Below are positions 6,533-28,567 of a stretch of 28,567 nt of DNA, piece after piece. The first letter of the stretch is position 1; every line of letters begins with the position of its first letter. The DNA comes from a virus, in the IMG/VR virus record IMGVR_UViG_3300040806_001024, positions 1 to 28,567 of that record; one strand, written 5' to 3'. A program made the translations under genes and the position numbers. The notes below the pieces were generated by a model that saw nothing but the letters and a program-made list of their open reading frames with translations, was not told the origin of the DNA and did not search any database.

Positions 6533-8338
6533 ATGGAACTTAATAAACTTCGTTTATCTCAGATAGACACATCAGACATAGAAACTTCAGATTTTGCTTC
6601 GCAAACTCAGGTTGATAGTGTCCAAAGCAATCTGAGCTCTTATGCAAGCTATGCTAATACTACTTTTGGTACAGGCGGAGGCACTGCTACAGGCAACGGA
6701 GTTGTGTTCTCAACTTCTACTACTACTGATGCTTCTAACGCCTATTCATTAGCTATAACTAATAATGGAATGACAGACTGGACATTAAGCTCAGGTTACG
6801 ATAGGACAGGTGCTGTATCTGGTAATGATGCTAATGTATATATTGAAGAAGGTGATGTTATTAGCATTACTAATAATGCTGGCAGTGCTCACCCTCTCTA
6901 CATTAAGTATAACTCGTCTGTAGGAGTAGAAGACGCAGTAGCAGGTGTTTTAAATCAGGGAGCTTCAGACGGTGCAACACTAAGTTGGGATACCTCTGTA
7001 GGTGATGCAGGAGTTTACTTTTACCAGTGTGCGTCTCACTTAGAGATGAATGGGTATTTAGTAGTAGAATCTACAGGTACCTACACCTCTACAGATTACT
7101 ACTCTTTATCTAATGTGTTTTCTCTTCCTCAGTCTGTTGAGTATAAAGAAAATCTACTAGTATATATTAACGGTCTATTACAGCATCCAGATGCGTATAG
7201 TATCTCTAGCGCTAATCTAACTCTTGCTAACTCTGATCCTCTTCCAGTAAATATGAAGATCTCAGTAAGAGAGCTAGCAGTTGCAGGAGGGTTAGCTAAC
7301 GTAGCTTTAGCAAATGTTTCTGAAGCACGAGCTTCAAATGCAGCTAATGGTACACTAACTTTTGACTATGAAGGCTCTAACCTTTACATCTATGACGGTA
7401 CTGTAGCAGGAGGGTACTATCTTCCACTAACGCAGGCTGTTGCTTTAGATGTAGGCGCTACCTTTCAAGGATCTACGAGCGGGTATTCTTCTGGTGGTTA
7501 TAGCACAGTGTATTCAAATGTTATCGACAAGTTTCCATTTGTGAGTGATGCAAATGCAACAGATGTTGGTGATTTGACGGTAGCAAGAAGAGCAGCAGCA
7601 GGTCAATCTTCAGAGGTATCTGGTTATACTTCTGGTGGCTATGCGTCAATGCCGCCTACGCCTGGTGATAGCAACGTAATTGACAAATTTCCATTTGCAG
7701 CTGACGGCAACGCAACTGATGTTGGCGATTTAACATTAGCAAGAAATCAAACTGTAGGTCAATCGAGCGAGGTGTCTGGATATACTTCAGATGGTTCTTA
7801 TGTAGGCGGTTATTCAACTGTAATCGATAAATTTCCGTTCGCTTCTGATACAAACGCAACTGACGTAGGCGATTTGATGCTAGCAAAGGAAGGCGGCGCG
7901 GGCCAATCCAGCACAACATTTGGATATAGTTCAGGCGGATTCGTGTCGCCATATACCAATGTAATTCAAAAATTTCCTTTCTCTTCTGATACAAATGCAA
8001 CTGACGTTGGTGATCTGACGGTAGCAAGGAGATATGCAACAGGGCAATCAAGTACAGCATCTGGTTATACTTCCGGGGGCGCGAACAGCATCATTGAAGG
8101 TACAATTGATAAATTTCCATTTGCAACAGATGCGAATGCAACTGATGTTGGTGATTTATCACAAGCTAGAGCCCTTGGTGCTGGTCAGTCATCCACGGCT
8201 TCTGGGTATACTTCAGGTGGTTCAGGTCCAGCCAACTCAAATGTAATTGACAAATTTCCATTTGCAGCTGACGGCAATGCAACTGATGTTAGTGATTTGA
8301 CAATAGCTAGAACCAGGGTTGTAGGGCAACAAGTATAG
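6533..8338 (+). CDS. Adhesin or fibre with cupredoxin-like domain and six-repeat kelch-like propeller
   Basis: This 601-residue protein has at least four parts. Residues 1-25 (MELNKLRLSQIDTSD) match the start of the next gene. Residues about 60-180 look like a cupredoxin: EEGDVISITNN, a His in GSAHPLYI (H120), then a final strand FYQCASHLEMNGYLVV giving C166, H169 and M172. His...Cys-x2-His-x2-Met is the arrangement of a type-1 copper site. Residues about 195-245 repeat the INGLLQHPDAY domain. Residues about 275-295 hold the LTFDYEGSNLYIYDG linker. Residues 316-601 are six repeats of about 46-50 residues with consensus SGYTSGG...IDKFPFASD.NATDVGDLT.AR...GQSS, most simply one six-bladed kelch-like propeller. 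It is probably a host-recognition or surface-binding virion protein. Copper binding is inferred from the motif only. Confidence 0.72.
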   Translation: MELNKLRLSQIDTSDIETSDFASQTQVDSVQSNLSSYASYANTTFGTGGGTATGNGVVFSTSTTTDASNAYSLAITNNGMTDWTLSSGYDRTGAVSGNDANVYIEEGDVISITNNAGSAHPLYIKYNSSVGVEDAVAGVLNQGASDGATLSWDTSVGDAGVYFYQCASHLEMNGYLVVESTGTYTSTDYYSLSNVFSLPQSVEYKENLLVYINGLLQHPDAYSISSANLTLANSDPLPVNMKISVRELAVAGGLANVALANVSEARASNAANGTLTFDYEGSNLYIYDGTVAGGYYLPLTQAVALDVGATFQGSTSGYSSGGYSTVYSNVIDKFPFVSDANATDVGDLTVARRAAAGQSSEVSGYTSGGYASMPPTPGDSNVIDKFPFAADGNATDVGDLTLARNQTVGQSSEVSGYTSDGSYVGGYSTVIDKFPFASDTNATDVGDLMLAKEGGAGQSSTTFGYSSGGFVSPYTNVIQKFPFSSDTNATDVGDLTVARRYATGQSSTASGYTSGGANSIIEGTIDKFPFATDANATDVGDLSQARALGAGQSSTASGYTSGGSGPANSNVIDKFPFAADGNATDVSDLTIARTRVVGQQV

Positions 8339-8341
8339 AAC

Positions 8342-9973
8342 ATGAACCTAATAAATCTTCGTTTATCCCAAATAGAACCTTCTACCGACTCTGAGATTGC
8401 TCTGCGCTCTCAGAGTGATGGCGTATCTTCAAACGTAGATAGTTTTGCTGCGTATGCTAATTCTACTTTTACTACTGGTGGGTATTCAAACTCTGTTGTG
8501 TTAAGCGAGAGTATCAAATACCTAAGCAGTACTAACGCTAATTCAGCTTATGCAGACTCTAATTCTTTTGTGCTAGGCTCTGCTATTAATTCTAGAGATA
8601 ATTTACTAGTATATTTAGATGGTATTCTTCAACATACAGATCAGTATACAGTAGAGGGTACCTCCTTAACCCTTTCTAATACAGACCCTCTCCCCAAAGA
8701 CATTTCTGTCGGTATTCGCCACCTACAAACCTCTAATGTTTTAGTAACTACTTCCGCAGGCGCTAATTCTATAGCAGCCTCTAACGGAACTATAGCTTGG
8801 GATTATGAGACCAAACGACTGTATGTATATGATGGATCTACAATTGGTGGTTATGCATCTAATACTGCAACACAATCTGTAGTTTCTCCTTTTTTTGCTA
8901 AGGGATTTTCAGACGCCTCAGCCACTAAGACTGTCTCTTTAGTAGAAACTTTAGCTTCTGGCCTCACATCTTATGCAGATAGGTCTAGAATTATTGTTAC
9001 TACATCTAAATACTTATTTGTAGATGCTCCTTCTACATCTAATCCACACACTAATCTTAAAATATATGATATTCAAGGAGACAATAAAACAAGCCCTTCA
9101 TATATAGACACTCAATCTATTAATGGGTGGGCACCAGCTGCTTTTATAGGTTACGGAGACACTCTGTTTTACTGCGATGGTAATAATCTATACTCAGCGT
9201 CGTTTGACGGAGCTTCTCTTTCTACCTTAGATACTATTACAGGCACGAGCGTCGATGGTATAGGAGGAGAAGTTAGGCTTTGGACTCGAGACGATGGAAA
9301 CACATACTTGATCTGTGCTCAACATCCTTATTTTACTGTAGTGAACATTACGGACCCTTCAGCTCTCAGTACTGAGTTTACTCATAATATGGCAACCTAT
9401 AGCCGTGCTTGGGCAGTTACAAACAAGTGGTTAATGGTATTTCATCAGAATGGTTTTGTAGGGCAAGCTAAAATAGGAGAATATTTAGACGGCGGTACAG
9501 TTTCAACAGCTACTTCATCTACTAATTCTTCTTGGAGAGGGCTTAACCAGCGCAGCGGCGCAATTATTACAGTAGGCTCTGCTAAGTACTTTGTATGGGA
9601 CTATTTTACTGGTGTGTACGCAGCGCAACTCTATGACGATACAAATGCTACAGGGCCTGTAGGTTCTACATTTGCAAGCACTCCTGTTGCTTACGGCACG
9701 CCAAGTCAATCTTACCCTCAAGTCTGGAAAGATGATTATGATAATATATTTATCAACTATTATACTCCTGAAAACTTTTTTAGGGCGTTAACTTTCTCTG
9801 GTAGTGCCTGGACGAATACTTTTGGATCTAATATAGACAACTACCTACTTGTAGGGGGTGTAGGTATAGGTACAATTAATAGCAGAGATCAATTCGCAAT
9901 ACACGATGAGGTTGCTTATATAACCTCTTACGATAGTGATACAGATTTAAACCTGCTAAAAGTAATAGTATAA
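8342..9973 (+). CDS. Fibre or adhesin protein with putative beta-propeller head
   Basis: The 543-residue product starts MNLINLRLSQIEPSTDSE, clearly paralogous to the N-terminus of the preceding gene, and again carries the NGxLQ-type domain (LVYLDGILQHTDQY, about residue 90-125) and the GTIAWDYETKRLYVYDGS linker (about residues 148-166). The C-terminal 370 residues differ from the kelch proteins: strands such as KYLFVDAPS, NLKIYDIQGD, GDTLFYCDGNNLYSAS and VAYITSYDSDTDLNLLKVIV recur at intervals typical of a propeller of LVIVD or WD-like type. The start lies 3 nt after the previous stop. It looks like a copy of the same anchor with a replaced head domain. Receptor binding is an inference from architecture and position. 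Confidence 0.62.
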   Translation: MNLINLRLSQIEPSTDSEIALRSQSDGVSSNVDSFAAYANSTFTTGGYSNSVVLSESIKYLSSTNANSAYADSNSFVLGSAINSRDNLLVYLDGILQHTDQYTVEGTSLTLSNTDPLPKDISVGIRHLQTSNVLVTTSAGANSIAASNGTIAWDYETKRLYVYDGSTIGGYASNTATQSVVSPFFAKGFSDASATKTVSLVETLASGLTSYADRSRIIVTTSKYLFVDAPSTSNPHTNLKIYDIQGDNKTSPSYIDTQSINGWAPAAFIGYGDTLFYCDGNNLYSASFDGASLSTLDTITGTSVDGIGGEVRLWTRDDGNTYLICAQHPYFTVVNITDPSALSTEFTHNMATYSRAWAVTNKWLMVFHQNGFVGQAKIGEYLDGGTVSTATSSTNSSWRGLNQRSGAIITVGSAKYFVWDYFTGVYAAQLYDDTNATGPVGSTFASTPVAYGTPSQSYPQVWKDDYDNIFINYYTPENFFRALTFSGSAWTNTFGSNIDNYLLVGGVGIGTINSRDQFAIHDEVAYITSYDSDTDLNLLKVIV

Positions 9974-9986
9974 TAAGGAATTAATA

Positions 9987-10634
9987 ATGCCTCTATATAA
10001 ACCTTCTTCCTCTCTTCTTGCAATTAGTGCTAATGCACAAGAAGCATCCACTACTGTAGGACCTGCAGGGTCTTTTAAGTGGAACTATGAAGATAATCAG
10101 CTTCACATATATGATGGAGTCACTCTTGGAGGCTTTATTCGTTCTTTTGAGGCAGAGGGTGCCGGAGGGGGAGTTTCAGGGCCTGTAGAGACTAAATTTT
10201 ATACTGAGTTTGATTCTAATACGTCTAATAAATTTACTTATGAGTTTGAGTACGCAACTTGGTTAGACTCTTTTGTAGCCGCTTCTAATGTAACAGAGTT
10301 GCGTTCTTACTTTAGTCAAGGGCTTGGAGAAATTACTCCTACTCATACTCTCACAGACACTACTCAAATTGCAGCATTCCAAAACGCATTATCTACAGGG
10401 GTGGGATATACAGCATCCTCAGGATGGTCAGTAGCATTTTCTTGCGGTAGTCCTAACTCTGGAAGTATCTCTACGTGGTCCAACTCTCCTTATTTTTACT
10501 TTGAAGAAGGAGCAGGATGTAACTGTAATGCTACTCCTGTACTTAGACCGCTTATTGGTAATTCTAACTGGGGTGGCTACGGCGGCGGCTGTAGCCAACC
10601 TACTCAGTTTATGGGGATGGGCTTTATAGTATGA
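9987..10634 (+). CDS. Fibre-like protein with glycine/cysteine-rich C-terminus
   Basis: An AAGGA precedes the ATG. The 215-residue protein has the shared linker SFKWNYEDNQLHIYDGV at about residues 29-45, a short glycine stretch (EGAGGG), and a middle beta region. Its last 60 residues are unusual: GAGCNCNATP, then NWGGYGGGCSQPTQFMGMGF. Counting the FSCGSP site just before, there are four cysteines in a glycine- and aromatic-rich tip. This might bind metal, form disulfides after virion release, or simply be a compact tip. The stop overlaps the next ATG by 4 nt (ATGA), implying translational coupling. I do not recognise a named family. Assignment to the adhesin group rests on the linker and on its neighbours. 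Confidence 0.55.
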   Translation: MPLYKPSSSLLAISANAQEASTTVGPAGSFKWNYEDNQLHIYDGVTLGGFIRSFEAEGAGGGVSGPVETKFYTEFDSNTSNKFTYEFEYATWLDSFVAASNVTELRSYFSQGLGEITPTHTLTDTTQIAAFQNALSTGVGYTASSGWSVAFSCGSPNSGSISTWSNSPYFYFEEGAGCNCNATPVLRPLIGNSNWGGYGGGCSQPTQFMGMGFIV

Positions 10635-11638
10635 TAACAAAATTTAACACACAATTATTTGATATTTCTATGAACTCTTACACTCTAGCAAACACTGCGG
10701 GTGCTAACGGTCAAATATCTTATAACTATGAAACAGGCAAGCTGTACATTCATGATGGCTTTGGGAATAAGTTTAGTAACACTTTAGTTCAGACTGGTCC
10801 TACTATTAGTCAGATGCAAGGTTCTAGCTATGGATATTCCGCTGGGGGCGGTAATCAATCAGGCATTGATTTATATCCATTTGCGTCTGAAACTACTACG
10901 AGTGTAGGACCAACTGCATTAACATACCCTTCCGGCGATGCGGCGGCAAATTCTAGCAGAGAAAATGGTTATTCATCAGGGCCTGTATACGGTACTCAGA
11001 ATGTTATCCAAAAGTTTTCTTTCCCACTTGCTAGTAGCTCTAACGACGTGGGCGATTTAACTGTTGCGCGCCGGAGCGGTTCCGGCTCATCATCTACAGT
11101 ATCAGGATATACTTCTGGTGGTGTTGCTGTACCGGCTATTTCTAATATAATTGACAAATTTTCTTTTGCAGCTGATGGTAACGCAACGGACGTTGGCGAT
11201 TTAACTACAACTGCTTACACCGCAACAGGGCAAGCGTCAACAACACATGGTTATAGAGCCGGCGGATATAACGCCAATGTTATTGACAAATTTCCCTTTG
11301 CATCTGATACAAATGCAACTGATGTTGGTGATTTACCGGGCAATACAGGCTATTCGACAGGTAATTCTAGTGGAGAAAATGGATATGTTTCGGGCCAAGC
11401 GGGGAGCGTCGGAACCACCGGGATCCAAAAGTTTCCTTTTGCTACTGATACAAATGCATCTAATATTGGCAACTTGACATTTGGCAATTACGTAGCTTCT
11501 TCCCAAAATTCATCCACTGACGGATATGTTACTTATAGTACAACAGATAAATTTTCTTTTGCTTCTGATGGCAATGCGACTAATATTGCCTCATCCTTTA
11601 TTACAGGATCCGCTATAGGCACTGGCCATCAAGTTTAA
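10631..11638 (+). CDS. Six-repeat kelch-like propeller adhesin
   Basis: This 335-residue protein consists of a short anchor, the linker NTAGANGQISYNYETGKLYI/HDG (about residues 18-40) and, from residue 67 to the end, six kelch-like repeats. Repeat marks are GYSAGG, GYSSGP, GYTSGG, GYRAGG, GYVSGQ and a degenerate GYVTYS, each followed by an IDKFPF or IQKFSF strand and, in the less degenerate copies, N.TDVGDL. The last repeats have lost most of the GG loop. The frame overlaps the preceding stop by 4 nt. The family is a phage-borne propeller repeat; by analogy with other terminal propellers it may bind host surface glycans. Binding partner unknown. Confidence 0.65.
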   Translation: MITKFNTQLFDISMNSYTLANTAGANGQISYNYETGKLYIHDGFGNKFSNTLVQTGPTISQMQGSSYGYSAGGGNQSGIDLYPFASETTTSVGPTALTYPSGDAAANSSRENGYSSGPVYGTQNVIQKFSFPLASSSNDVGDLTVARRSGSGSSSTVSGYTSGGVAVPAISNIIDKFSFAADGNATDVGDLTTTAYTATGQASTTHGYRAGGYNANVIDKFPFASDTNATDVGDLPGNTGYSTGNSSGENGYVSGQAGSVGTTGIQKFPFATDTNASNIGNLTFGNYVASSQNSSTDGYVTYSTTDKFSFASDGNATNIASSFITGSAIGTGHQV

Positions 11639-11675
11639 ATATTTCGAGACAGAGAGCAACAGGAGCACAATACTA

Positions 11676-12680
11676 ATGGTAGATTTTATAACCCCCTCAA
11701 ACATAGATATTAGAGCAAATGACGCAGTAGCTAGTAATACAGCTGGTGCTAACGGTCAGTTTCTTTTTAATACAACCTCTAACTCACTGCATGTGTACGA
11801 TGGATTTAGTATAGGAGGTTATAAAACAAGCTTAACCATTAGGGTATTACCCCCTTCAGCACAAGGCTCAATCAGCGGTTATACTTCTGGAGGCGGCATT
11901 TCTACATCAGTAAACACAATTGATAAGTTTTCGTTCAGTGCTGATGGAAACGCAACTGACGTAGGGGATCTTACGCAATCTAGGAAAAAAATGGCAGGAC
12001 AATCTAGTTCTACTCACGGTTATACTTCTGGTGGGACGATTCCAGGTTCTGTAGACACAATCGACAAGTTTCCTTTTACCTCTGATTCAAACGCTTCTAC
12101 TGTAGGTAGCTTAACCCAGGCAAGAAGCGGATGTGTAGGTAATGAGAGTCCTGTAAGCGGTTATTCAAATGGCGGTGGTGGTATTATTGATAAGTTCCCT
12201 TTTGCCTCTGATACAAATGCAGCATCAGTAGGCAATACTCTAGCCCCAAATGGAATGTATGGCGCTGGTCAGAGTTCTGCTACTCATGGATACGCTACGG
12301 GCCACAACGTCCCCGCCGTAGATACAATCGAGAAATTCCCTTTCAGTTCTGATACAAATGCTACTGATGTAGGAGAATTAACAGCTGCTAATTTTGGAGG
12401 GATAGGTACAAATAGTAATTCTCACGGGTATCAAGGAAAAAACAATCTTATTGAAGAATTCTCTTTTTCCTCTGATAGTAGCGCTACTTCGGTAGGAACC
12501 ATGTCATCCCCTGTTAAATGGTATGCAGCAGGACAATCTTCTACTACTCATGGTTATACCTCTGGCTCTACAGGATCGTCGGCTACTATAGACAAGTTTC
12601 CTTTTTCTTCTGGAGGGCCTGCTTCTGCAATCGGCAATCTTACTCAGGGTAGATACGCATGTACAGGCCAACAAGATTAA
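11676..12680 (+). CDS. Six-repeat kelch-like propeller adhesin
   Basis: The 334-residue product is a close structural paralogue of the preceding one: the linker NTAGANGQFLFNTTSNSLHV then YDG near residues 20-42, and the first repeat beginning at residue 68, the same position as in its neighbour. Six repeats follow (GYTSGG, GYTSGG, GYSNGG, GYATGH, GYQGKN, GYTSGS), with IDKFPF or IEKFPF strands and SDTNATDVG. The sequence ends TGQQD. An AGGAG lies upstream of the ATG. Codon choice here (TCT, ACT, GGT) follows the surrounding genes more closely than that of the 10631-11638 paralogue. It is the last gene before the largest non-coding gap. Predicted role: exchangeable surface-binding head of the tail or fibres. 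Confidence 0.65.
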   Translation: MVDFITPSNIDIRANDAVASNTAGANGQFLFNTTSNSLHVYDGFSIGGYKTSLTIRVLPPSAQGSISGYTSGGGISTSVNTIDKFSFSADGNATDVGDLTQSRKKMAGQSSSTHGYTSGGTIPGSVDTIDKFPFTSDSNASTVGSLTQARSGCVGNESPVSGYSNGGGGIIDKFPFASDTNAASVGNTLAPNGMYGAGQSSATHGYATGHNVPAVDTIEKFPFSSDTNATDVGELTAANFGGIGTNSNSHGYQGKNNLIEEFSFSSDSSATSVGTMSSPVKWYAAGQSSTTHGYTSGSTGSSATIDKFPFSSGGPASAIGNLTQGRYACTGQQD

Positions 12681-13110: not shown

Positions 13111-15827
13111 TGTACTTAAAAAGACTAGGAAATAGCATTGCTTATTTTCCTAATATTTCTGAATTAAAAGATAACACGAACCGTCTATATTCTATAGGGG
13201 GTTCTTTGTATTTTAATGGTCAAGAAGTGGGTAGTGGTAGCGGAGACGCTTCTAACACTTGGACCAATGCTAACGATCATACAACCTATACTGCCCTTTC
13301 TGGTCTTATTAACACTGTTAACTCTAATGTAGACGCATTACCTGATTCAGCGGCAAATGACTATTCAACTTATACTACCCTTTCTGGTCTTATTAACACT
13401 GTTAACGCTAATGTAGACGCATTACCTGATTCAGCGGCAAATGACTATTCAACTTATACTACCCTTTCTGGTCTTATTGACACTGTTAACGCTAATGTAG
13501 ACGCATTACCTGATTCAGCTGCTAACGACTACTCAACCTATACTTCCCTTTCTAGTCTTATTGACACTGTTAACGCTAATGTAGACGCATTACCTGATTC
13601 AGCGGCAAATGACTATTCAACTTATACTACTGTTACTGCAAATTTATATAGCACATGGAATTCTTTAGATACTAGGATTAATGCTCTTGATGCAGGGTCT
13701 AATACCTCAGTCAGTGACCTTATTGCAGGTATAGAAGGTGCTAATACTAATATAGACACGATACAGAGTAATATAGACACCAGTATCTCTACAGGCAGTG
13801 TAATCCCTGCTAGTGATAATTCAGGGTATGTAGGAAATGCACTATTTACTTGGTCTTCTGGCAGATTTACTAGCTTTAATATTGAAGAAGAACTAGAAGT
13901 GGGGGGCAGTGTAACTATCGAAGGTAACTTAACTGTTTCAGGCAATGTAGTTACAGTAAACGCTTCTGAATTGTCCCTTGAAGATAACATGATTTATCTT
14001 AACGCCAACAATACAGTTACTAATCCAGATTTAGGATTTGCAGGCAACTATAATGATGGCACCTATCAGCACGCAGGATTTTTTAGAGACGCTACTGACG
14101 GGAGATGGAAAGTTTATGAAGGGTACACCCTTGAACCCGATGAAAGCCCTTATATAGATACTTCTCACGGTAGCTTTGCATTGGCTACTTTTGAGGCTGA
14201 CGAGATTGTAGCCGCCAAAGCAATTATTAATTCTGTAAATGTGCTGTCTAACGACTATGCAACCTATACTACCCTTTCTAGCCTTATTAACACTGTTAAC
14301 TCTAATGTAGACGCATTACCCGATTCAGCTGCTAACGACTATTCAACTTATACTACCCTTTATAGCCTTATTAACACTGTTAACTCTAATGTAAACTCAT
14401 TACCCGATTCAGCTGCTAACGAACTGCTAATTATAGGTTCGGATGGAACTAGTATTGTAAGTGATGACACACTTAACATTGACCCAAGCAACAACTATGT
14501 GGGTATTAACCAAACATCACCAGAAGTAACATTACATATGACAGGCGAAGGTGCTCAAACAGCACAAATTCGTATGGAGCAGTACAATGACAGTGTTGAC
14601 GCTCCAGATTTAAGAACAAGAAGATACAGAGGTACAATTGCCTCACCACTTGCTATACAATCAGGTGATTATCTTTATAGGAGTAATCACGAATATTGGA
14701 ATGGTTCAGCGCTTATTGTAGGTGGACAGTTTGCTTTTGACAACGCCAACAATGCCAACAGAACACAGTTTACGGTTGCGGTTACCACAGACGGTACATC
14801 AGTTGAAGCCAGTACAAATGATGATGTGCAATTTAAGATTGATGGTAACGATGGCGGTGCTATTACATTTAACAATGCATACAAGTTTCCAACCAGCGAT
14901 GGTACTTCTAACCAATTTTTACAAACTGATGGTAGTGGAAACTTAACCTTTGCCGATATTGGCATTGATCCTGCTGCTAACGACTATTCAACCTATACTA
15001 CCCTTCTAGGGCTTATAAATACAGTAAGCGCTAATACAAGTGCTGCGCCTGATAGCGCAGCGAATGATTACACAACTTATACAACTGTTACTGCAAATTT
15101 ATATAATACTTATACAACTCTTAACACAGCTATTGACACTGTTAACGGTAATGTAACTCCTGTTAACTTAGATTTACTAACCCCTAGTGCTAATCTTACG
15201 GGAGTAGTAGGTAATGCGCTAAGTACGTATTCTAGTGGGTATTTTAATAACCTAAATGTAGTATCGACTATTTATAGTGACAAAATACTGTACTCTAATA
15301 TGTATTCAAATGAGGTAGACCTACCTAGTGCTACTACTTATCATGGTATGTTTGCCCATGTCCATGCTACAGGTGCTGGGTATTTTTCTCATAACGGAAG
15401 TTGGAATAAATTAATAGACAATACCACCCCTACAATTGCAGCTACTACAGCTCTTGTAGCGGGGGGTGCCACTAACCCTTCAACATCTACGTTACATGTT
15501 ACAGGTAACGCATATATTTCTTCTGATACTCTTATTGGAGGGACTCTAACAGAATCTTCATCTGTACGGTTAAAAGAAAATATTATACCACTGAACAATC
15601 AACTAGATAAATTAATGTTGCTCCGACCTGTAGAGTATGATAAGATAGACTCAAGAAATCATGAATACGGACTGATAGCAGAAGAAGTAGCAAATGTAAT
15701 TCCCCAAGCAGTATCTCTTGGAAATTCAGCTATTCAGTATACTAGACTAGTACCCGCACTAATTAGTGCAATTCAAGAGCTAAAACTAGAAATAGAGGAG
15801 TTAAAACGTGGCAGTATTATCACCTAA
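13110..15827 (+). CDS. Long tail fibre with C-terminal S74-type intramolecular chaperone
   Basis: The 905-residue fibre starts with a short anchor, then carries 28-residue repeats (NDYSTYTTLSGLI then NTVN.NVDALPDSAA) in tandem from residue 55. A module near residues 283-375 (SELSLEDNMIYLNANN, NYNDGTYQHAGFFRDATDG, SHGSFALATFEA) matches one I know from T4-like cyanophage fibres. Two more repeats follow, then a distinct insert (about 438-619), two further repeats and a second fibre segment. Residues about 816-905 form the chaperone: SSSVRLKENI, YGLIAEEVANVIPQ, YTRLVPALISAIQEL and a terminal heptad coil. In the S74 family this domain trimerises the fibre and often cleaves itself off at a serine just before the RLK.N motif; the candidates here are S816-S818. 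It is a trimeric receptor-binding fibre by family knowledge. Confidence 0.82.
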   Translation: MYLKRLGNSIAYFPNISELKDNTNRLYSIGGSLYFNGQEVGSGSGDASNTWTNANDHTTYTALSGLINTVNSNVDALPDSAANDYSTYTTLSGLINTVNANVDALPDSAANDYSTYTTLSGLIDTVNANVDALPDSAANDYSTYTSLSSLIDTVNANVDALPDSAANDYSTYTTVTANLYSTWNSLDTRINALDAGSNTSVSDLIAGIEGANTNIDTIQSNIDTSISTGSVIPASDNSGYVGNALFTWSSGRFTSFNIEEELEVGGSVTIEGNLTVSGNVVTVNASELSLEDNMIYLNANNTVTNPDLGFAGNYNDGTYQHAGFFRDATDGRWKVYEGYTLEPDESPYIDTSHGSFALATFEADEIVAAKAIINSVNVLSNDYATYTTLSSLINTVNSNVDALPDSAANDYSTYTTLYSLINTVNSNVNSLPDSAANELLIIGSDGTSIVSDDTLNIDPSNNYVGINQTSPEVTLHMTGEGAQTAQIRMEQYNDSVDAPDLRTRRYRGTIASPLAIQSGDYLYRSNHEYWNGSALIVGGQFAFDNANNANRTQFTVAVTTDGTSVEASTNDDVQFKIDGNDGGAITFNNAYKFPTSDGTSNQFLQTDGSGNLTFADIGIDPAANDYSTYTTLLGLINTVSANTSAAPDSAANDYTTYTTVTANLYNTYTTLNTAIDTVNGNVTPVNLDLLTPSANLTGVVGNALSTYSSGYFNNLNVVSTIYSDKILYSNMYSNEVDLPSATTYHGMFAHVHATGAGYFSHNGSWNKLIDNTTPTIAATTALVAGGATNPSTSTLHVTGNAYISSDTLIGGTLTESSSVRLKENIIPLNNQLDKLMLLRPVEYDKIDSRNHEYGLIAEEVANVIPQAVSLGNSAIQYTRLVPALISAIQELKLEIEELKRGSIIT
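13272..13607 (+). repeat. Tandem 84-nt in-frame repeats (four full copies) in the fibre gene
   Basis: Four consecutive units start at 13272, 13356, 13440 and 13524, each 84 nt (28 codons) and nearly identical at DNA level. A fifth, diverged unit starts at 13608. Further copies of the same unit lie at 14250-14333, 14334-14417 and 14979-15062. They encode N.Y.TYTTLS.LI..VN.NVDALPDSAA, which would form an elongated trimeric shaft. The high DNA identity suggests recent duplication or ongoing homogenisation, and makes copy-number change by recombination likely. Confidence 0.9.
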
Positions 15828-16935
15828 TTCGACGTTAGGCTCTAATGTTATCTTCACTACCCAAGATGATGCAATAACCTCTAATGTATTTTACGAATTG
15901 CCAGACTTGGGTGCTACTGCTAAGTCTGGCGCTGCTATTTTTAAGCACGCAAATGGTACTATACAGTATGGGTACTTAGCTGCAGATACTGTTGTAGCCT
16001 ACGGAGATACAGAGGGTTATATATCAGGAGGACAAATTAGCATTAGCCCTAGTACCACCACAGACAGTATACAATCTTTCCCGTTTGTTAACGGTACTTC
16101 AATGACTAATGTAAAAAATTTAATAGCGCCTAATATATATATAATGGGAGGCTTTAATAGTACTACACATGGTTATACCGCAGGAGGTAGAAGAGTACCT
16201 ACAGGGGATATTCCCTTAGGGATCACTTCTACAGACGCTATAGAAAAATTTTCTTTTGCTGATCTTAACCCCTCTTCCTCAGTAGGAACTTTAAGTTCAG
16301 CAACATTTGGTGGTGCCGGTCATTCTTCTACATCTTATGGGTATGCTTCTGGTGGTAGACAAGGTCCTCCCTTTGTATATGTGGCTACTATAGATAAATT
16401 TCCTTATACAAGTGAAGGCTCAGCCTCAAACATAGGAAGTATAGTGCAGACTAGTATGTATCATGCAGGGCATTCAAGTTCTACAGATGGGTACGTTAGT
16501 GGAGGATCAAATCCGCCGGCTACTCCAGTATCAGACGTTATCCAACGTTTTCCTTTTTCCTCTAATTCCCCTTCTACAGATATAGGAGAATTAACACAAG
16601 CACGTCAGAGATCTTCAGGCAGCTCTAGTTCTACACACGGTTATACCACTGGTGGGCTTATAAGTCAAGCTAATTCGTCAAATATAGAAAAATTTACATT
16701 CTCATCCTCAAGCACGTCTTCAAGTGTTGGAGACCTTACATGGGCTAGACAACTTGCAGGAGGGGGTAATTCTAGTACTACTGATGGATATAGTTCGGGA
16801 GGTGTTAATCCCTTTTTATCTCCAGCATTCGGAACTAGTATAGATAAGTACCCTTTTAGCTCTGATACCCCTGCTACGACTATCCCTGCCTCTTTATCGG
16901 TGGGAACTACATATTCCTCTTCTCAGAATTCATAG
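15808..16935 (+). CDS. Six-repeat kelch-like propeller adhesin
   Basis: The gene starts with GTG at 15808, 7 nt after GAGGAG, and overlaps the end of the S74 fibre by 20 nt in another frame. The 375-residue product begins MAVLSPNSTLGSNVIF, has a diverged linker (FKHANGTIQYGYLAADT, about 47-63), then six kelch-like repeats from residue 70 to the end: GYISGG, GYTAGG, GYASGG, GYVSGG, GYTTGG, GYSSGG, with IEKFSF, IDKFPY, IQRFPF, IEKFTF and IDKYPF strands. It has exactly six units, like the other three kelch genes here, but the repeats are more diverged and the loops longer, so this is an older member of the family. A predicted surface-binding virion protein. Confidence 0.65.
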   Translation: MAVLSPNSTLGSNVIFTTQDDAITSNVFYELPDLGATAKSGAAIFKHANGTIQYGYLAADTVVAYGDTEGYISGGQISISPSTTTDSIQSFPFVNGTSMTNVKNLIAPNIYIMGGFNSTTHGYTAGGRRVPTGDIPLGITSTDAIEKFSFADLNPSSSVGTLSSATFGGAGHSSTSYGYASGGRQGPPFVYVATIDKFPYTSEGSASNIGSIVQTSMYHAGHSSSTDGYVSGGSNPPATPVSDVIQRFPFSSNSPSTDIGELTQARQRSSGSSSSTHGYTTGGLISQANSSNIEKFTFSSSSTSSSVGDLTWARQLAGGGNSSTTDGYSSGGVNPFLSPAFGTSIDKYPFSSDTPATTIPASLSVGTTYSSSQNS

Positions 16936-16945
16936 GAAATTATTA

Positions 16946-18403
16946 ATGGCAAAATTAACACCAGACTCTAAAGTAGATGGTTCTCAGATCTACACAGGAA
17001 ACGTAGAGCTAAATACTTCTGTGGCTGGATCTAATTCCCCTGATCTGTACTATCTGTATAAATATTCAAATGGTACTCTTAGATGGGAAGCGGTCCCCGC
17101 AGCTTTAGAGCCTAACATAGAATTTAGTACCGCTACGCCAACACCTACTCCAACACCTACTCCAACACCTACTCCAACACCTACTCCAACACCTACGCCC
17201 ACCCCAACTTTTACTCCTTTTACTAATCAAACTACCACTACTGGTAGCGAAGCTTTACCTCCTAGTACTGCAGGGTATACAGTTACTTACGAGTTAGTAG
17301 GTTCCGGAGGTGCTGGGGGTTTAGCAGGTTCTCCCTATGCCAAGGACGGGATAACTCCAGGACCTCTAGGCCCTTATGCTACTTACCCTGCTGTTAATTA
17401 TCCTACTCCTACAGCTTACCAGTACCACATAGGAGGGAGCCCTGGAGGAGGAGGCGGAGGGGCAGGAAGCATCCAAGGGGGCAGCTTTGTTATCCCTGCT
17501 TCTGGTCCTTTTACTTTTAACTATACTATTGCCGGCGTAACCCCTTTTGGGGCGGGATCTGCTAGTGATATCAGCCACCCTACTATCACTACTGTTACTG
17601 CTAGCGGAGGTTCTCAAGGAACTACAGGTGCTGGAGATCCTGCTACTAATGGTGTGTTAGGGCCTGCTAATGTTAATAACCTTAGGTTTTATCCTTCGAC
17701 TAATAATCCTGGTAGTGCAGGCAGTGTTAATCCGGCACTAGCCTCTAACCCTACTGCCGTAGGTAAAGGAGGTTGGGGTTATTGGGGTAATGGTAGCCCT
17801 CCTGGAGGGTCAACCAACAATCCGCCTACTTCTCCTAGATCGGGTGCTGCAGGAGGTATCTACTACTCTGTAGTGGAAAATTCTCCAACACCTACGCCAA
17901 CACCTACGCCAACACCTACGCCAACACCTACGCCTACTCCCTCAGTTTACGACATAGAAATGTTTTATAACCCTGCTCCTCAGATACTTGAGATCGATAC
18001 AAGTACAGGAGCATTAAGTACCGCTCCTGGACCATACTCTTTTACATCAGTAACTAAAGTTAGTGGGCCCACTGAGCCTCAAGCTACCCACTTTTCATCT
18101 TTTAGTACTATTACTGTATCAGATGTTCAAGCTGCGGGAGATTTAAGCGCTTCCACAGAATGGGTAAAAATGTACTGGACAGGGTCACCTACAGGGTCGC
18201 AACTTTCAAATACCGCAGATGATGGAACTTATAGACCTATGGGTACTCCTAATCCAGCTAGCGCACCTGCTACAAGTTATGTAAACTTTTACGTAACTAA
18301 AGCCCCAGGCGTAGGTCCTTATATAGCACCAGGGATGACACCTAATCCCGTAAATAACCCAGCCGCTTCTTGGAAAGTGAAGTGGCGTGTAACACTAGAT
18401 TAA
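16946..18403 (+). CDS. Adhesin with two Thr-Pro repeat linkers and a glycine-rich domain
   Basis: The 485-residue product begins MAKLTPDSKVDGSQIYTGN, related to the starts of the genes at 15808 and 19776, and has the short linker KYSNGTLRWE. A first (Thr-Pro)n tract follows (codons at 17135-17209). Next comes a glycine-rich beta domain (VTYELVGSGGAGGLAG, GGSPGGGGGGAGSIQGGS, GKGGWGYWGNGSPPGG) that resembles the glycine-rich heads of phage adhesins. After a second (Pro-Thr)n tract (17885-17941) there is a C-terminal beta domain ending WKVKWRVTLD. The Thr-Pro tracts would be stiff, extended spacers between globular heads. The two genes immediately downstream encode 2OG/Fe(II) oxygenases, which makes this protein a candidate substrate for proline hydroxylation; that link is inference. 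Confidence 0.68.
   Translation: MAKLTPDSKVDGSQIYTGNVELNTSVAGSNSPDLYYLYKYSNGTLRWEAVPAALEPNIEFSTATPTPTPTPTPTPTPTPTPTPTPTPTFTPFTNQTTTTGSEALPPSTAGYTVTYELVGSGGAGGLAGSPYAKDGITPGPLGPYATYPAVNYPTPTAYQYHIGGSPGGGGGGAGSIQGGSFVIPASGPFTFNYTIAGVTPFGAGSASDISHPTITTVTASGGSQGTTGAGDPATNGVLGPANVNNLRFYPSTNNPGSAGSVNPALASNPTAVGKGGWGYWGNGSPPGGSTNNPPTSPRSGAAGGIYYSVVENSPTPTPTPTPTPTPTPTPTPSVYDIEMFYNPAPQILEIDTSTGALSTAPGPYSFTSVTKVSGPTEPQATHFSSFSTITVSDVQAAGDLSASTEWVKMYWTGSPTGSQLSNTADDGTYRPMGTPNPASAPATSYVNFYVTKAPGVGPYIAPGMTPNPVNNPAASWKVKWRVTLD
17135..17209 (+). repeat. In-frame 12-bp microsatellite encoding Thr-Pro repeats
   Basis: About 75 nt of alternating ACN and CCN codons, mostly built on the 12-bp unit CCAACACCTACT. 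The DNA is nearly perfect in its middle copies. Slippage in whole 6- or 12-bp steps keeps the frame, so the linker length can vary without loss of the protein. Confidence 0.9.
17885..17941 (+). repeat. Second in-frame 12-bp microsatellite encoding Pro-Thr repeats
   Basis: About 57 nt built on CCAACACCTACG. It differs from the first tract in the last base of the unit (ACG in place of ACT), so the two tracts have been expanded separately rather than copied as a block. Confidence 0.9.
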
Positions 18404-19161: not shown

Positions 19162-19776
19162 ATGTTACTTTTACAAAAAGAACTACCACCTATTCCATCT
19201 ATTATTGTGCACGATAAAAACACTTGCCCTGACGACACTAATCTATACTTTACTCCTGAAGAGTGTATGTGGATTAGAAAGTGGGCAGAAAACAAAACAC
19301 CTCAGTTCGCTTCTGTAGGCTCTGGTAATGAAAATGAGGTGAGACGTAGTACAAGAGACGTATATCTTGTTGGTATGCCTAGAGACGAAATGACAGATGG
19401 CATTTACCGTAAGATTTTATATCAAGTAGACTATGCTAATAAAAATGGATTTAATTTTGATTTACAAGGAATTTTGCATGATCTACAAGTACTTAGGTAT
19501 ACAGACGCTACTCAGCAGCACTATGATTGGCATATTGATATCAGTGGCGGTAATGCTACAGGCAGAAAAATCTCATACATCATTCAATTAAGTGATGAAG
19601 ATGAGTATGAAGGAGGAGAGTTAGAAGTCTTTGACGGTAATAATCATATCGCCCCCAAAAAACAAGGCACAGTAGTAATGTTTCCTAGTTATATGAGCCA
19701 TAGAGTATCTCCCGTAACTAAAGGCACTCGCTGGAGCTTGGTTATCTGGATTCAAGGAACAACTCATTTTAGGTAA
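19162..19776 (+). CDS. 2-oxoglutarate/Fe(II)-dependent dioxygenase (prolyl-hydroxylase-like)
   Basis: I place the start at the ATG at 19162 (GAGG 6 nt upstream, 1 nt after the previous stop) rather than at an in-frame TTG at 19150, giving 204 residues. The catalytic set is complete: HxD in QHYDWHIDIS (H124, D126), the distal histidine in YMSHRVSPV (H180) and, exactly ten residues later, R190 in KGTRWSLVIWIQG for the 2-oxoglutarate carboxylate. GGELEVFDG and GTVVMFPS are the usual strands between. This arrangement is that of prolyl-4-hydroxylase/PiuC-type enzymes, which oxidise protein or small-molecule substrates using O2 and 2-oxoglutarate. The stop overlaps the next start (TAATG). Adjacent virion proteins are plausible substrates, but nothing in the sequence proves it. 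Confidence 0.85.
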   Translation: MLLLQKELPPIPSIIVHDKNTCPDDTNLYFTPEECMWIRKWAENKTPQFASVGSGNENEVRRSTRDVYLVGMPRDEMTDGIYRKILYQVDYANKNGFNFDLQGILHDLQVLRYTDATQQHYDWHIDISGGNATGRKISYIIQLSDEDEYEGGELEVFDGNNHIAPKKQGTVVMFPSYMSHRVSPVTKGTRWSLVIWIQGTTHFR

Positions 19777-24742: not shown

Positions 24743-26041
24743 ATGGCAGGGCCTATAAATTGGATTAGAGAAAAGTTAAACCCTATCCAGCCGTATCTAC
24801 AAAGCCAAGAGCCTCTAATTCAGCCAGAGAGCAATGTAGATTTTAGAACAGCGTATGATCAGGTTGAGATTATACACAGATGCGTTGAAATGATGATTAA
24901 TGCTGTAGTAGGTATTCCTTACGCAGTAGAGCCTGGAAGCCAAGGCGGACCAGTAAAAAAGTTAGACAGATTATTAAATGAACGCCCAAACCCTTTTGAG
25001 GATAGAGCTAGATTTTTTAGAAGAGCAATACTAGATCTTTTATTAGATGGTAATGCTTTTTTCTACTATGATGGAAAAGATTTATATATACTACCTGCTA
25101 ACGATGTTGAGATTGTAACAGACGCTAAAAGATTTGTAAAAGGTTATACTTATTTAGTAAGTGGTTCAGGGTCTAGCTATGACTCAGGGTTTGAACCTTT
25201 TGGTTCTTCTTCGGGTACTCCCTCTTCTAGCAGAGGAACTAAAGAGAGTACTGAGATATACTTTGACTCAGCAGAAGTAATTCATGTAAAAGATGACAGT
25301 GATGATAGTATATTTAGAGGAAGAAGTAGGTTAAGAAGCTTATCAGACCTAATAAACTTATACTATGCCTTACTTAAGTTCCAAAGACAGTTCTTTAAGA
25401 ATAATGCTATACCGGGAGTAGTCTTAACCACTGAGGCGGTTTTAAGCTCTAAGATTAAAGACAGACTTCTTCAATCTTGGAGAAACTCATATACTACTAT
25501 TTTTGATGGGGCTAGAAATCCTGCTATTTTAGACGGTGGCTTAAAAATAGATAAGTTTAGTGACGTAAACTTTCAAAGTTTAGATTTTGAAAGTAGCGTA
25601 GAGCGGCTACAGCAAGACATGGCTAAAGCCTTAGGAGTACCATATACATTATTAAAAAGTGGTAATAATGCTAATATATCTTCTAATCAGGTATTATTTT
25701 ATGAGCATACTATAATACCTATAGTTCATCAATTTACTAGTGCCTTTACGCATTATTTTAATTCAGTACGAATTAGACCAGATTTAGTGCACATACCAGC
25801 ACTACAACCAGATCTTAAATCTCAAGCCCAATATTATACCTCTTTAGTTAATGCAGGCATAATCACAGCTGACGAAGCAAGATTGAAATTAAACTTCCCT
25901 GAACTCAGGGAAGAAGCCACTTCAAAAATTCGCATACCTCAAAATATTACTGGTAGTGCTACAAACCCAGAGTTGGGTGGAAGACCTAAAGACGGTGATA
26001 AAGTAGAGGATGCAACGCAAACGGAGTTAGATAATGACTGA
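24743..26041 (+). CDS. Portal protein, HK97 type
   Basis: I choose the ATG at 24743 (GGAG 6 nt upstream, inside the HNH gene's end) over an in-frame TTG at 24731, giving 432 residues. HK97-type portal signatures run through the chain: VEIIHRCVEMMINAVVGIPY near residue 40, RLLNERPNPFEDRARFFRRA and LDLLLDGNAFFYYDG around 75-110, EVIHVKDDS near 175, RGRSRLRSLSDLINLYYALL, then MAKALGVPYTLLKSG and SNQVLFYEHTIIPI around 290-325. A short Gly/Ser-rich loop (about 138-165) is inserted in the wing. The portal forms the dodecameric ring at the capsid vertex through which TerL pumps DNA. It overlaps the protease start by 8 nt. Confidence 0.93.
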   Translation: MAGPINWIREKLNPIQPYLQSQEPLIQPESNVDFRTAYDQVEIIHRCVEMMINAVVGIPYAVEPGSQGGPVKKLDRLLNERPNPFEDRARFFRRAILDLLLDGNAFFYYDGKDLYILPANDVEIVTDAKRFVKGYTYLVSGSGSSYDSGFEPFGSSSGTPSSSRGTKESTEIYFDSAEVIHVKDDSDDSIFRGRSRLRSLSDLINLYYALLKFQRQFFKNNAIPGVVLTTEAVLSSKIKDRLLQSWRNSYTTIFDGARNPAILDGGLKIDKFSDVNFQSLDFESSVERLQQDMAKALGVPYTLLKSGNNANISSNQVLFYEHTIIPIVHQFTSAFTHYFNSVRIRPDLVHIPALQPDLKSQAQYYTSLVNAGIITADEARLKLNFPELREEATSKIRIPQNITGSATNPELGGRPKDGDKVEDATQTELDND

Positions 26042-28567
26042 TAAAAAATTTTATATCCATAGTGATAACATAGAAGTAAAATCAGCATCTTCCTCAAAGA
26101 AGTCTTTTAAAATTGCAGGATATGCAAATACATCTACTAAAGACAGAACAGGAGATATTGTTTTACCAGAGGCATGGTTAAAGGGGGTAGAGAACTATAG
26201 AAAAAACCCAGTTCTTTTATACCAACATGATCATAGTAAGCCTATCGGTAAAGCAGAGTCTGTTAGAGTAGATAAAAAAGGTATTTTTGTTGAAGGTTCT
26301 GTATCTGATGCAGCAGAAAAGCTGCACGGAGTACAAACTTTAATCCAAGACGGAGCTTTAAAAAGCTTTAGTGTAGGATTTAGAGTTAAAGATGCTGATT
26401 ACGACAGAACAGAAGACACTTTCTTTATTAAAGAATTAGAGCTTTTAGAAATTAGTGTGGTCAGCGTACCTGCTAATCAAGAATCTCTATTTAGTATACG
26501 CAAATCTTTTGATGACGACTCAAGCTACGAAGAGTTTAAAAAGCAATTTGTAAAAGAAGATGCTGAAGAGCTTAAGGTAGAAGATTCTACTGAAGAAGAC
26601 ACTGCTAAAGAGCTACAAGAAGAAGCAGTAGAGAAAGCTTCCGAAGAAGTAACAGAGGTTAAAGAGGTAGAGGAAGAGGTTATCGAGGAAGATCCTAATA
26701 CTCCTATCCCATTCTATAACATGCTAAGCGCTGATACTGCAAAACTAAACAACGGGGATACGGTAAAACTAGAGGGCAAACGATATAATATCAAAAAAAT
26801 TGCTACCGCCGAATCACCATATTTCATATTTAAAGAAATTGACATTCAAGGAGTTTCAAGCGATAATACTATCAAGATTAATGCTGAAACTTTATCAGTA
26901 GTTAATTCTTGGGATGTGAACACTAAGTTTGATATATCTATGATTACTCATTCAAATATCACAAATATTACTGATAAAGAGAGACAAACTATTAAGTCTC
27001 AATTTAACGACTTAGTAAAGTCTTCAGAGCTAGAGCTATTTAATTTAAAAAGCAAAGTAAAAGAAGACAACCAACAACAAACTCTGAATTCGTTAATGAA
27101 TTTAAAAAGCATGAATTCAGACTCTTGGAGTGATACTCATTATTCACTTGCACAGAGATTTGTTAAAACTATTAACGCACTTATCGAACTTCCAGAAGAA
27201 GAAGATAGAAATTTCGCATTGAAAATAAACGGTTATCTAACCGATAATAAGGAGAATAAAGAGATGGCAGAACAGGAAATTGGTGATACCATCACTGTTG
27301 AAACAAAAGCTACAGAAGCTCCAGTAGTTGAGGAGAAAAAAGTTTCTGCTCACGTATCTGAGCCAAGAGTAGCAGAGCTAGTCGAAAAGACTGGTGCAAA
27401 AATTATTGAGCAGTCTGACGAAAAGATCAAGGCTGGCAATGAAGACCATGAAAATTCCCGCTTGTCTGAAGAACTAGCAGAATTAAGAGGTCAAATGAAA
27501 GCATATCGTGAGCAAATCGATTCTTTCACAACAAGCAAAATGCATTATCAAGAGAGCACACGTAACCACGCACAGTTCTCGCAAAAAGACCTATCGAATG
27601 CATATTTCTTGTCTAAAGCACTACGCAAGAGCCCAATGGATACCAAGTACGGTATGCGTATGAAAGACGTAGTCGCTGGTAACAACGTTGAAGCATTTGA
27701 AAACGCATTCAGCACCAACGTGTATGAAGAAATGAGACAGCAGTTAGTTGTTGCTCCTTTATTCAACCGTATCGGTGTTAACGCTAAAGCTTTCTCCGTA
27801 CCAGTCGCAAGTGAAGATACCGATGATGCAATCGCACAATTTACAAGCGGTACATACACAACTGATACAAATAGCAACGTGCCTACTTCTAATCAGCACC
27901 AGCTAAAATCAGTAGAGTTAACACCTCACAAATTTATGGTTAAAACTCACATCGCAAAAGACGAAGAAGAAGATACAATTCTTCCACTAGTAGATTTCCT
28001 ACGTTCCGCAGCTACACGTCGTCTAGCTCGTTTCACGGATAAAGTACTTCTTCGTGGTACAGGAGCATTAACAGGCTTCGACGCTACAGAATCTCTATCT
28101 GCAGGTTCTACTGGCGGTATCGGTGGTGTAGCTTCCCCAATTAAAGGTGTTATCAACCACGCGGGTGCTGTAACAGCTCTTAACGTTTATCGTGGTATTG
28201 GTCTAACCGGTACAGACGCTAACACAGCTAAAGCTAACGCAGCTACTGTAGCAAGTGCTAGAGCCGCAATGGGCAAGTACGGCTTATCTTTAGGCGAAAA
28301 CCTAGTTATGCTAACATCGGTAGAAGGCTACAATAACTTTGTAACCGAAAACGATTTCCAAACAGTAGATAAGTTTGGCGCACAAGCGACTTACTTGACA
28401 GGTTCTATCGGAGCTATCTACGGAATCCCACTATATATTTCTGAGTTCATGGACACAGTATCTAGCACTGCTAATAATCGTGTTCTAGGCACTATGATCT
28501 ATAAGCCAGGATTCTTAATTGGTGAGCGTCGTGCTATGGAAGTTGAAAGTGAATATCTTCCTGAGCG
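26034..28567 (+). CDS. Prohead protease fused to major capsid protein (3' partial)
   Basis: One open frame runs from the ATG at 26034 to the window edge (at least 844 codons, no stop). Residues 1-155 are an HK97-type prohead protease: LLYQHDHSKPIGKAE (H65), LKSFSVGF (S111/S113; S113 best fits the usual SxGF) and LLEISVVSVPAN. Residues 160-222 are a very acidic, coiled scaffold-like stretch. Residues 225-405 are an unrecognised spacer with a small beta unit (NGDTVKLEGKRYNIKKI) and helices. From M411 comes a delta-like helical segment and then the HK97 capsid fold (EEMRQQLVVAPLFNRI, LRGTGALTGFD, GAIYGIPLYISE). In HK97 the protease and capsid are separate genes; here they are joined. The chain is probably processed by its own protease. 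The capsid part uses CGT/CGC, AAC and TTC codons far more than its neighbours. Confidence 0.9.
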   Translation, partial: MTDKKFYIHSDNIEVKSASSSKKSFKIAGYANTSTKDRTGDIVLPEAWLKGVENYRKNPVLLYQHDHSKPIGKAESVRVDKKGIFVEGSVSDAAEKLHGVQTLIQDGALKSFSVGFRVKDADYDRTEDTFFIKELELLEISVVSVPANQESLFSIRKSFDDDSSYEEFKKQFVKEDAEELKVEDSTEEDTAKELQEEAVEKASEEVTEVKEVEEEVIEEDPNTPIPFYNMLSADTAKLNNGDTVKLEGKRYNIKKIATAESPYFIFKEIDIQGVSSDNTIKINAETLSVVNSWDVNTKFDISMITHSNITNITDKERQTIKSQFNDLVKSSELELFNLKSKVKEDNQQQTLNSLMNLKSMNSDSWSDTHYSLAQRFVKTINALIELPEEEDRNFALKINGYLTDNKENKEMAEQEIGDTITVETKATEAPVVEEKKVSAHVSEPRVAELVEKTGAKIIEQSDEKIKAGNEDHENSRLSEELAELRGQMKAYREQIDSFTTSKMHYQESTRNHAQFSQKDLSNAYFLSKALRKSPMDTKYGMRMKDVVAGNNVEAFENAFSTNVYEEMRQQLVVAPLFNRIGVNAKAFSVPVASEDTDDAIAQFTSGTYTTDTNSNVPTSNQHQLKSVELTPHKFMVKTHIAKDEEEDTILPLVDFLRSAATRRLARFTDKVLLRGTGALTGFDATESLSAGSTGGIGGVASPIKGVINHAGAVTALNVYRGIGLTGTDANTAKANAATVASARAAMGKYGLSLGENLVMLTSVEGYNNFVTENDFQTVDKFGAQATYLTGSIGAIYGIPLYISEFMDTVSSTANNRVLGTMIYKPGFLIGERRAMEVESEYLPE
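27249..27266 (+). promoter_or_regulatory. Internal ribosome binding site and in-frame start of the capsid part
   Basis: AAGGAG (27249-27254) lies 9 nt before ATG 27264-27266, which is in frame with the long protease-capsid frame (codon 411) and marks the start of the delta-like/capsid section MAEQEIGDTI. Such a strong site inside a gene suggests a separately translated capsid protein. Confidence 0.65.

Follow-up and report, generated by a model that had tools for sequence, protein, structure and literature searches.

A candidate nested start for the capsid protein inside a protease-capsid fusion gene of uncultured T5-related phages

Could a single phage gene supply both a scarce protease-bearing chain and the bulk of the shell protein? 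This question is raised by a 28,567-nucleotide stretch of viral DNA (IMG/VR record IMGVR_UViG_3300040806_001024; hereafter the window), in which ORF analysis finds 844 codons without a stop at 26034-28565. The frame continues past the window end and terminates, as read from contig L001 (99% identical), about 40 codons beyond the edge. An earlier reading of this DNA, made without database searches (the sequence-only reading), had described here a single open frame joining an HK97-type protease, an acidic stretch, a spacer of about 180 residues and a capsid protein, and this description is borne out by the uninterrupted codons and the Pfam domains. Here, we interpret the gene as a nested gene pair, in which a few tethered fusion chains and many capsid chains would be made from one ORF, a reading to which we assign a probability of roughly 0.8. 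The coordinates of the features are collected in Table 1.

Table 1. Features of the fused gene and of its two putative translation starts in the window.
Feature	Position	Strand	Basis or remark
Ribosome-binding site of the fusion ORF, weak	26020..26033	+	GGAG, 7 nt; anti-SD duplex -6.1
Fusion gene of protease, linker, spacer domain and capsid protein	26034..28567	+	Open frame and Pfam; leaves the window
S78 prohead protease domain, residues 1-175	26034..26558	+	Pfam PF04586, 3.6e-23
Acidic linker	26559..26699	+	Length in relatives ~45 to ~190 residues, frame kept throughout
Spacer: beta-barrel-like domain and helical domain	26700..27248	+	AlphaFold2 pLDDT 84, pTM 0.80
Possible RNA hairpin CGGTT-ATCT-AACCG, just 5' of the SD	27230..27243	+	Sequence conserved in the clade
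Internal Shine-Dalgarno (SD) sequence AAGGAG	27249..27254	+	Anti-SD duplex -9.3
Internal ATG (codon 411), putative capsid protein start	27264..27266	+	Conservation, constraint, codon-usage break
Capsid N-terminal coil, inferred delta/scaffold-like	27264..27560	+	Aligned to T5-type capsid N-terminal region; model of low confidence
HK97-type capsid protein core, C-terminus outside the window	27561..28567	+	PF05065, 1.2e-9; PHROG 267, 9.8e-9

The Peptidase_S78 profile (PF04586) matches residues 13-154 (3.6e-23, profile positions 3-153 of 165), and H65 and S113, named earlier for the protease, are invariant in A1, an alignment of 12 sequences. By this profile coverage and the conserved catalytic His and Ser, the N-terminal part belongs to the S78 prohead proteases. 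The Phage_capsid profile (PF05065) matches residues 557-837 (1.2e-9, over the curated cut-off), and the capsid part also matches the major head protein of PHROG 267 (9.8e-9); the AlphaFold2 model of the capsid protein was of low confidence (pLDDT 52.6, pTM 0.38) and was left out of the fold search. Both domains lie inside one uninterrupted ORF, that is, the gene is a protease-capsid fusion.

Since the window is one metagenomic record, an assembly or sequencing artefact might have taken out a stop codon between two ordinary genes. However, more than 160 IMG/VR ORFs from many samples carry the identical fusion intact, by which such an artefact is ruled out, its chance being negligible. The relatives were gathered by scanning IMG/VR, and the set comprises 165 ORFs, with a few contigs counted twice, and a non-redundant subset of 66 ORFs (<80% identity); these sequences share ancestry, so counts across them are not independent. 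Both domains share one frame in the 165 ORFs, 66 of them at <80% identity, and no split of protease and capsid was found among the examined related loci spanning both domains. The same fusion, which the sequence-only reading had suggested seeking in related phage genomes, is thus present there, and a stop between the two parts, which it had named as the sign of an assembly error, occurs in none of the related genomes of the clade. Clades with the full spacer have 71-99% and ~45-55% identity, one further clade keeps the beta-barrel half of the spacer only, the helical half being absent, and a clade without the spacer has ~31-40% identity. On the evidence of these gene sequences, a large uncultured group of T5-related phages encodes its shell protein as the end of a protease-plus-shell gene. 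A search of GTDB genomes gave no close host or prophage.

Then, is there a second start within the fused gene? The sequence-only reading had pointed to an AAGGAG lying 9 nt before ATG codon 411. This site is indeed present at 27249-27254, with the ATG at 27264, and within the window's own clade AAG GAG and ATG are identical in every locus covering it, although an upstream Lys elsewhere is encoded by AAG in only about one quarter of cases. ATG 411 is the sole in-frame ATG of the ORF with a 7-nt SD match. Furthermore, codons 399-407 form the most synonymously constrained stretch of the gene in this clade, with 1 synonymous difference observed against 112 expected (ratio 0.009; 1% quantile of the null, 0.20). 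Among the representatives, 39/39 have an ATG preceded at 6-9 nt by AGGAG or a better match, with differing flanking residues and spacing, and in the spacerless clade the start can be GTG with AAGGAG. An SD core with an in-frame start lies between the protease and the capsid core in 63 of the 66 non-redundant ORFs, where the density of such starts at the boundary is 6.5 times that in the rest of the same ORFs; some relatives (L029, L161 and L145) have no more than a weak SD. Shuffling synonymous codons of the linker yields an SD with a start in ~31/66 ORFs, as against the 63/66 observed, and this control is conservative, since K/E-rich linkers give rise to SD-like strings in any case. Inside the gene there is therefore an in-frame start that has a ribosome-binding site to itself and is kept among relatives, as a nested pair demands. 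The pattern of substitutions indicates that this start is under selection, and very probably it is in use.

The calculated pairing with the anti-SD sequence points in the same direction. The start of the fusion ORF overlaps the end of the portal gene by 8 nt, and its site pairs in the window at -6.1 kcal/mol vs. -9.3 for the internal site; the internal site is also the stronger of the two in 37/38 relatives. In addition, synonymous codon usage breaks at about codons 394-411. In the window, CGY accounts for 1/10 of Arg codons before M411 and 15/19 after it, while the NNC fraction goes from 0.32 to 0.57, and none of the other large genes of the window has the codon usage of the capsid part. Among the 39 representatives, which are related sequences, CGY is higher downstream in 39/39 (p 4e-12) and NNC in 36/39 (p 7e-11), and the rise begins in the first 20-100 codons past the start, so that the shift is already present in the coil expected to be lost at maturation. 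In one subclade (about L189-L210), Arg in the capsid part is encoded by AGA, and the Arg marker is therefore host-dependent. The turn to a highly-expressed style of codon usage at the internal start fits more ribosomes downstream of it than upstream.

Could the capsid protein instead be freed entirely from the full fusion by self-cleavage, the internal ATG being a leftover methionine of the ancestral gene? Self-processing of S78 proteases is established, the protease would act in cis, and the frame is always open, all of which accord with such a polyprotein. However, a vestigial start would not preserve the nucleotides of AAGGAG as the synonymous differences above show them to be preserved, nor would it be kept despite clade-specific flanks and spacing. 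The codon-usage break at the start, which fits more ribosomes downstream, also speaks against it, and about 46 kDa extra per capsid subunit would need room inside the shell. We consequently hold a purely polyprotein gene to be highly improbable.

Another possibility is that the conserved stretch ahead of M411 serves as a promoter or as an RNA-processing site and so gives rise to a separate capsid mRNA, since the constraint reaches upstream of the SD and the stretch contains a sigma-70-like match at 27219-27248 and the possible hairpin at 27230-27243, the latter coinciding with the most constrained codons. The sigma-70-like hexamers are, however, not kept in relatives, and a transcript beginning after that -10 box would start downstream of the SD; the promoter candidate at 27219-27248 was rejected on these two grounds. 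As for processing, covariation was sought for the hairpin within the clade and none was found, and most other clades are without it. Even if a separate mRNA were made, translation would begin at the nested ATG, and we judge this explanation to be very unlikely. In the clade L045-L049/L091, a different hairpin, GTATAT...ATATAC, lies upstream of the internal SD.

In the scheme of two products, their co-assembly, dosing and cleavage that we infer for the nested gene pair, initiation at the first start (26034, with its weak site and 8-nt portal overlap) would give small amounts of the long protease-linker-spacer-capsid chain, and initiation at the second (27264, strong site) would give large amounts of the capsid precursor alone, both products being read in one frame and ending at one C-terminus. 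Fusion chains, as the minority, would probably enter capsomers via their capsid part, so that protease and spacer come to lie inside the procapsid, in a dose that the ratio between the two sites of initiation would set. At maturation, the protease would release itself by cleavage and also remove linker, spacer and delta-like coils. We lean towards the fusion chain being such a tethered minority subunit, with less assurance than we have in the use of the internal start. It could also be that the nested start is used with no tethering at all, the fusion cleaving itself in the cytoplasm to leave a free protease, and the loss of the stop being neutral. Separate genes suffice in T5-like relatives and the fusion could have been a one-time neutral event, but 66 lineages (<80% identity) are without return to a stop or frameshift, and linker lengths change by whole codons only; this alternative is thus unlikely. 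The frame kept in 66 lineages suggests that the fused chain is under selection, and it is from this maintenance of the frame only that a function of the fusion chain is deduced.

What might the parts between protease and capsid core do? The spacer (~180 residues) is predicted by AlphaFold2 with good confidence to consist of a small beta barrel and, after it, a helical domain. Searches of Pfam and PHROG gave no family with a meaningful E-value, and the predicted fold had no match in the PDB. The best viral fold lead was the prohead protease of HSTV-2 (probability 1.00, E 0.085), for which the profile comparison was not significant; the T5 decoration protein was also considered and was rejected. 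As the spacer lies upstream of M411, it is part of the fusion only, and one may speculate that it is an interior or targeting domain. The scaffold had earlier been placed in the acidic coil (residues 160-225), which now appears doubtful. The coil that directly follows M411 (about residues 411-510) aligns with the T5-type capsid N-terminal region. It is most likely the scaffold-like (delta-like) part, and it lies within the predicted capsid product.

Among annotated records, TerL (~40% identity), the protease and the capsid protein are closest to those of T5-like phages. The order TerL - HNH/nicking endonuclease - portal - protease - capsid is the same in T5 (Demerecviridae), where the capsid protein (pb8) starts directly after the protease. 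However, T5 has the head protease and the major head protein (pb8) in two genes with a stop between them, is without the spacer domain, and has the gene of a decoration protein lying between those for portal and protease; the separate protease and capsid genes of a T5-type head module are not found in the window. In T5_ev219, protease and capsid are separated by 17 nt, and the capsid start CGGAG...ATGACTATTGAT comes right after the protease stop. At the corresponding position, L029, a relative with the fusion, carries AGAGGG...ATGACTATAGAA in frame. This match in position implies that the internal start is a retained capsid gene start, and the fusion probably arose when the stop of the protease gene was lost and the start of the capsid gene remained. 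Elsewhere in the window, a 2OG-Fe(II) oxygenase gene (19189-19773; PF13640, 1e-19) lies between the tail genes and the terminase. In the tail-fibre region, adjacent ORFs at 6533-12680 and 15808-16935 have common repeated GYTSGG...IDKFPF units and are apparent tandem paralogues, and an ORF at 16946-18403, in the tail-fibre-like part, has long Pro-Thr repeats flanking Gly-rich segments.

Protease-capsid fusions as such have been met before. As far as the accessible text of the reports goes, actinophages have ORFs that unite an S78 protease with an HK97 capsid protein (PMC5513430, PMC9671004, PMC12760985), an arrangement termed unusual in one of them (PMC5513430). They are other phages, with GC-rich genomes and without the spacer domain, and their fusions are annotated in that text as one product, with a nested capsid start unmentioned. 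Among 16 actinophage fusions checked here, at least 10 have an in-frame boundary start with an SD of at least 5 nt, for example GMA5 (ATG265 with AGGAGG), McGonagall (ATG276 with AGGAG) and PensacolaC28 (GTG216 with AGGAGG); four have weaker boundary starts, and SallySpecial and EricDab have none. Synonymous shuffling gave 6.8 expected against 9 observed, a weak null in which linker residues encode SD-like strings, and it is therefore only the boundary position that carries the actinophage case. In the Gordonia phages SallySpecial (L118:952-954, codon 134) and EricDab (L119:1057-1059, codon 117), the SD-ATG separates the protease from an N-terminus that spans the membrane, which suggests that these genes have another nested start or that their annotated start is wrong. 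With even odds, protease-capsid fusions in general are genes with two products, both in the T5-related clade and, as an independent case, in small actinophages; in them a hidden start would give the bulk capsid protein and the rare full chain would carry the protease into the shell, with copy number set via two ribosome-binding sites.

If so, it would be answered how the 1:1 protease and capsid chain of the published fusions could build a shell. Many database entries for a 'major capsid and protease fusion' would then conceal a further start, that of the true capsid protein, and the capsid masses and N-termini predicted from them would be wrong. The fused gene would also be a natural means of packing an enzyme, covalently tethered and in a low, fixed amount, inside a shell.

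The fusion itself is already known from actinophages (PMC5513430), and nested capsid expression from it appears to be undescribed: in the literature searched, with most subscription journals outside coverage, no nested in-frame capsid start was reported. Compared with HK97 gp4/gp5, the gene has the same protease and capsid families and a delta-like scaffold at the capsid N-terminus; in HK97, however, the gp4 protease and the gp5 capsid protein are separate genes, and scaffold, not protease, is joined to the capsid protein.

Lambda C/Nu3 and herpesvirus UL26/UL26.5 each make a long protease chain and a short chain from an internal in-frame start, with a shared C-terminus and a stoichiometry set by the two starts. 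The nested product of C/Nu3 is the scaffold alone, whereas the short product here would hold the whole major capsid protein. The gene would therefore be C/Nu3-like in its working rather than a member of the C/Nu3 type, and with it the capsid protein itself would join the nested in-frame head genes.
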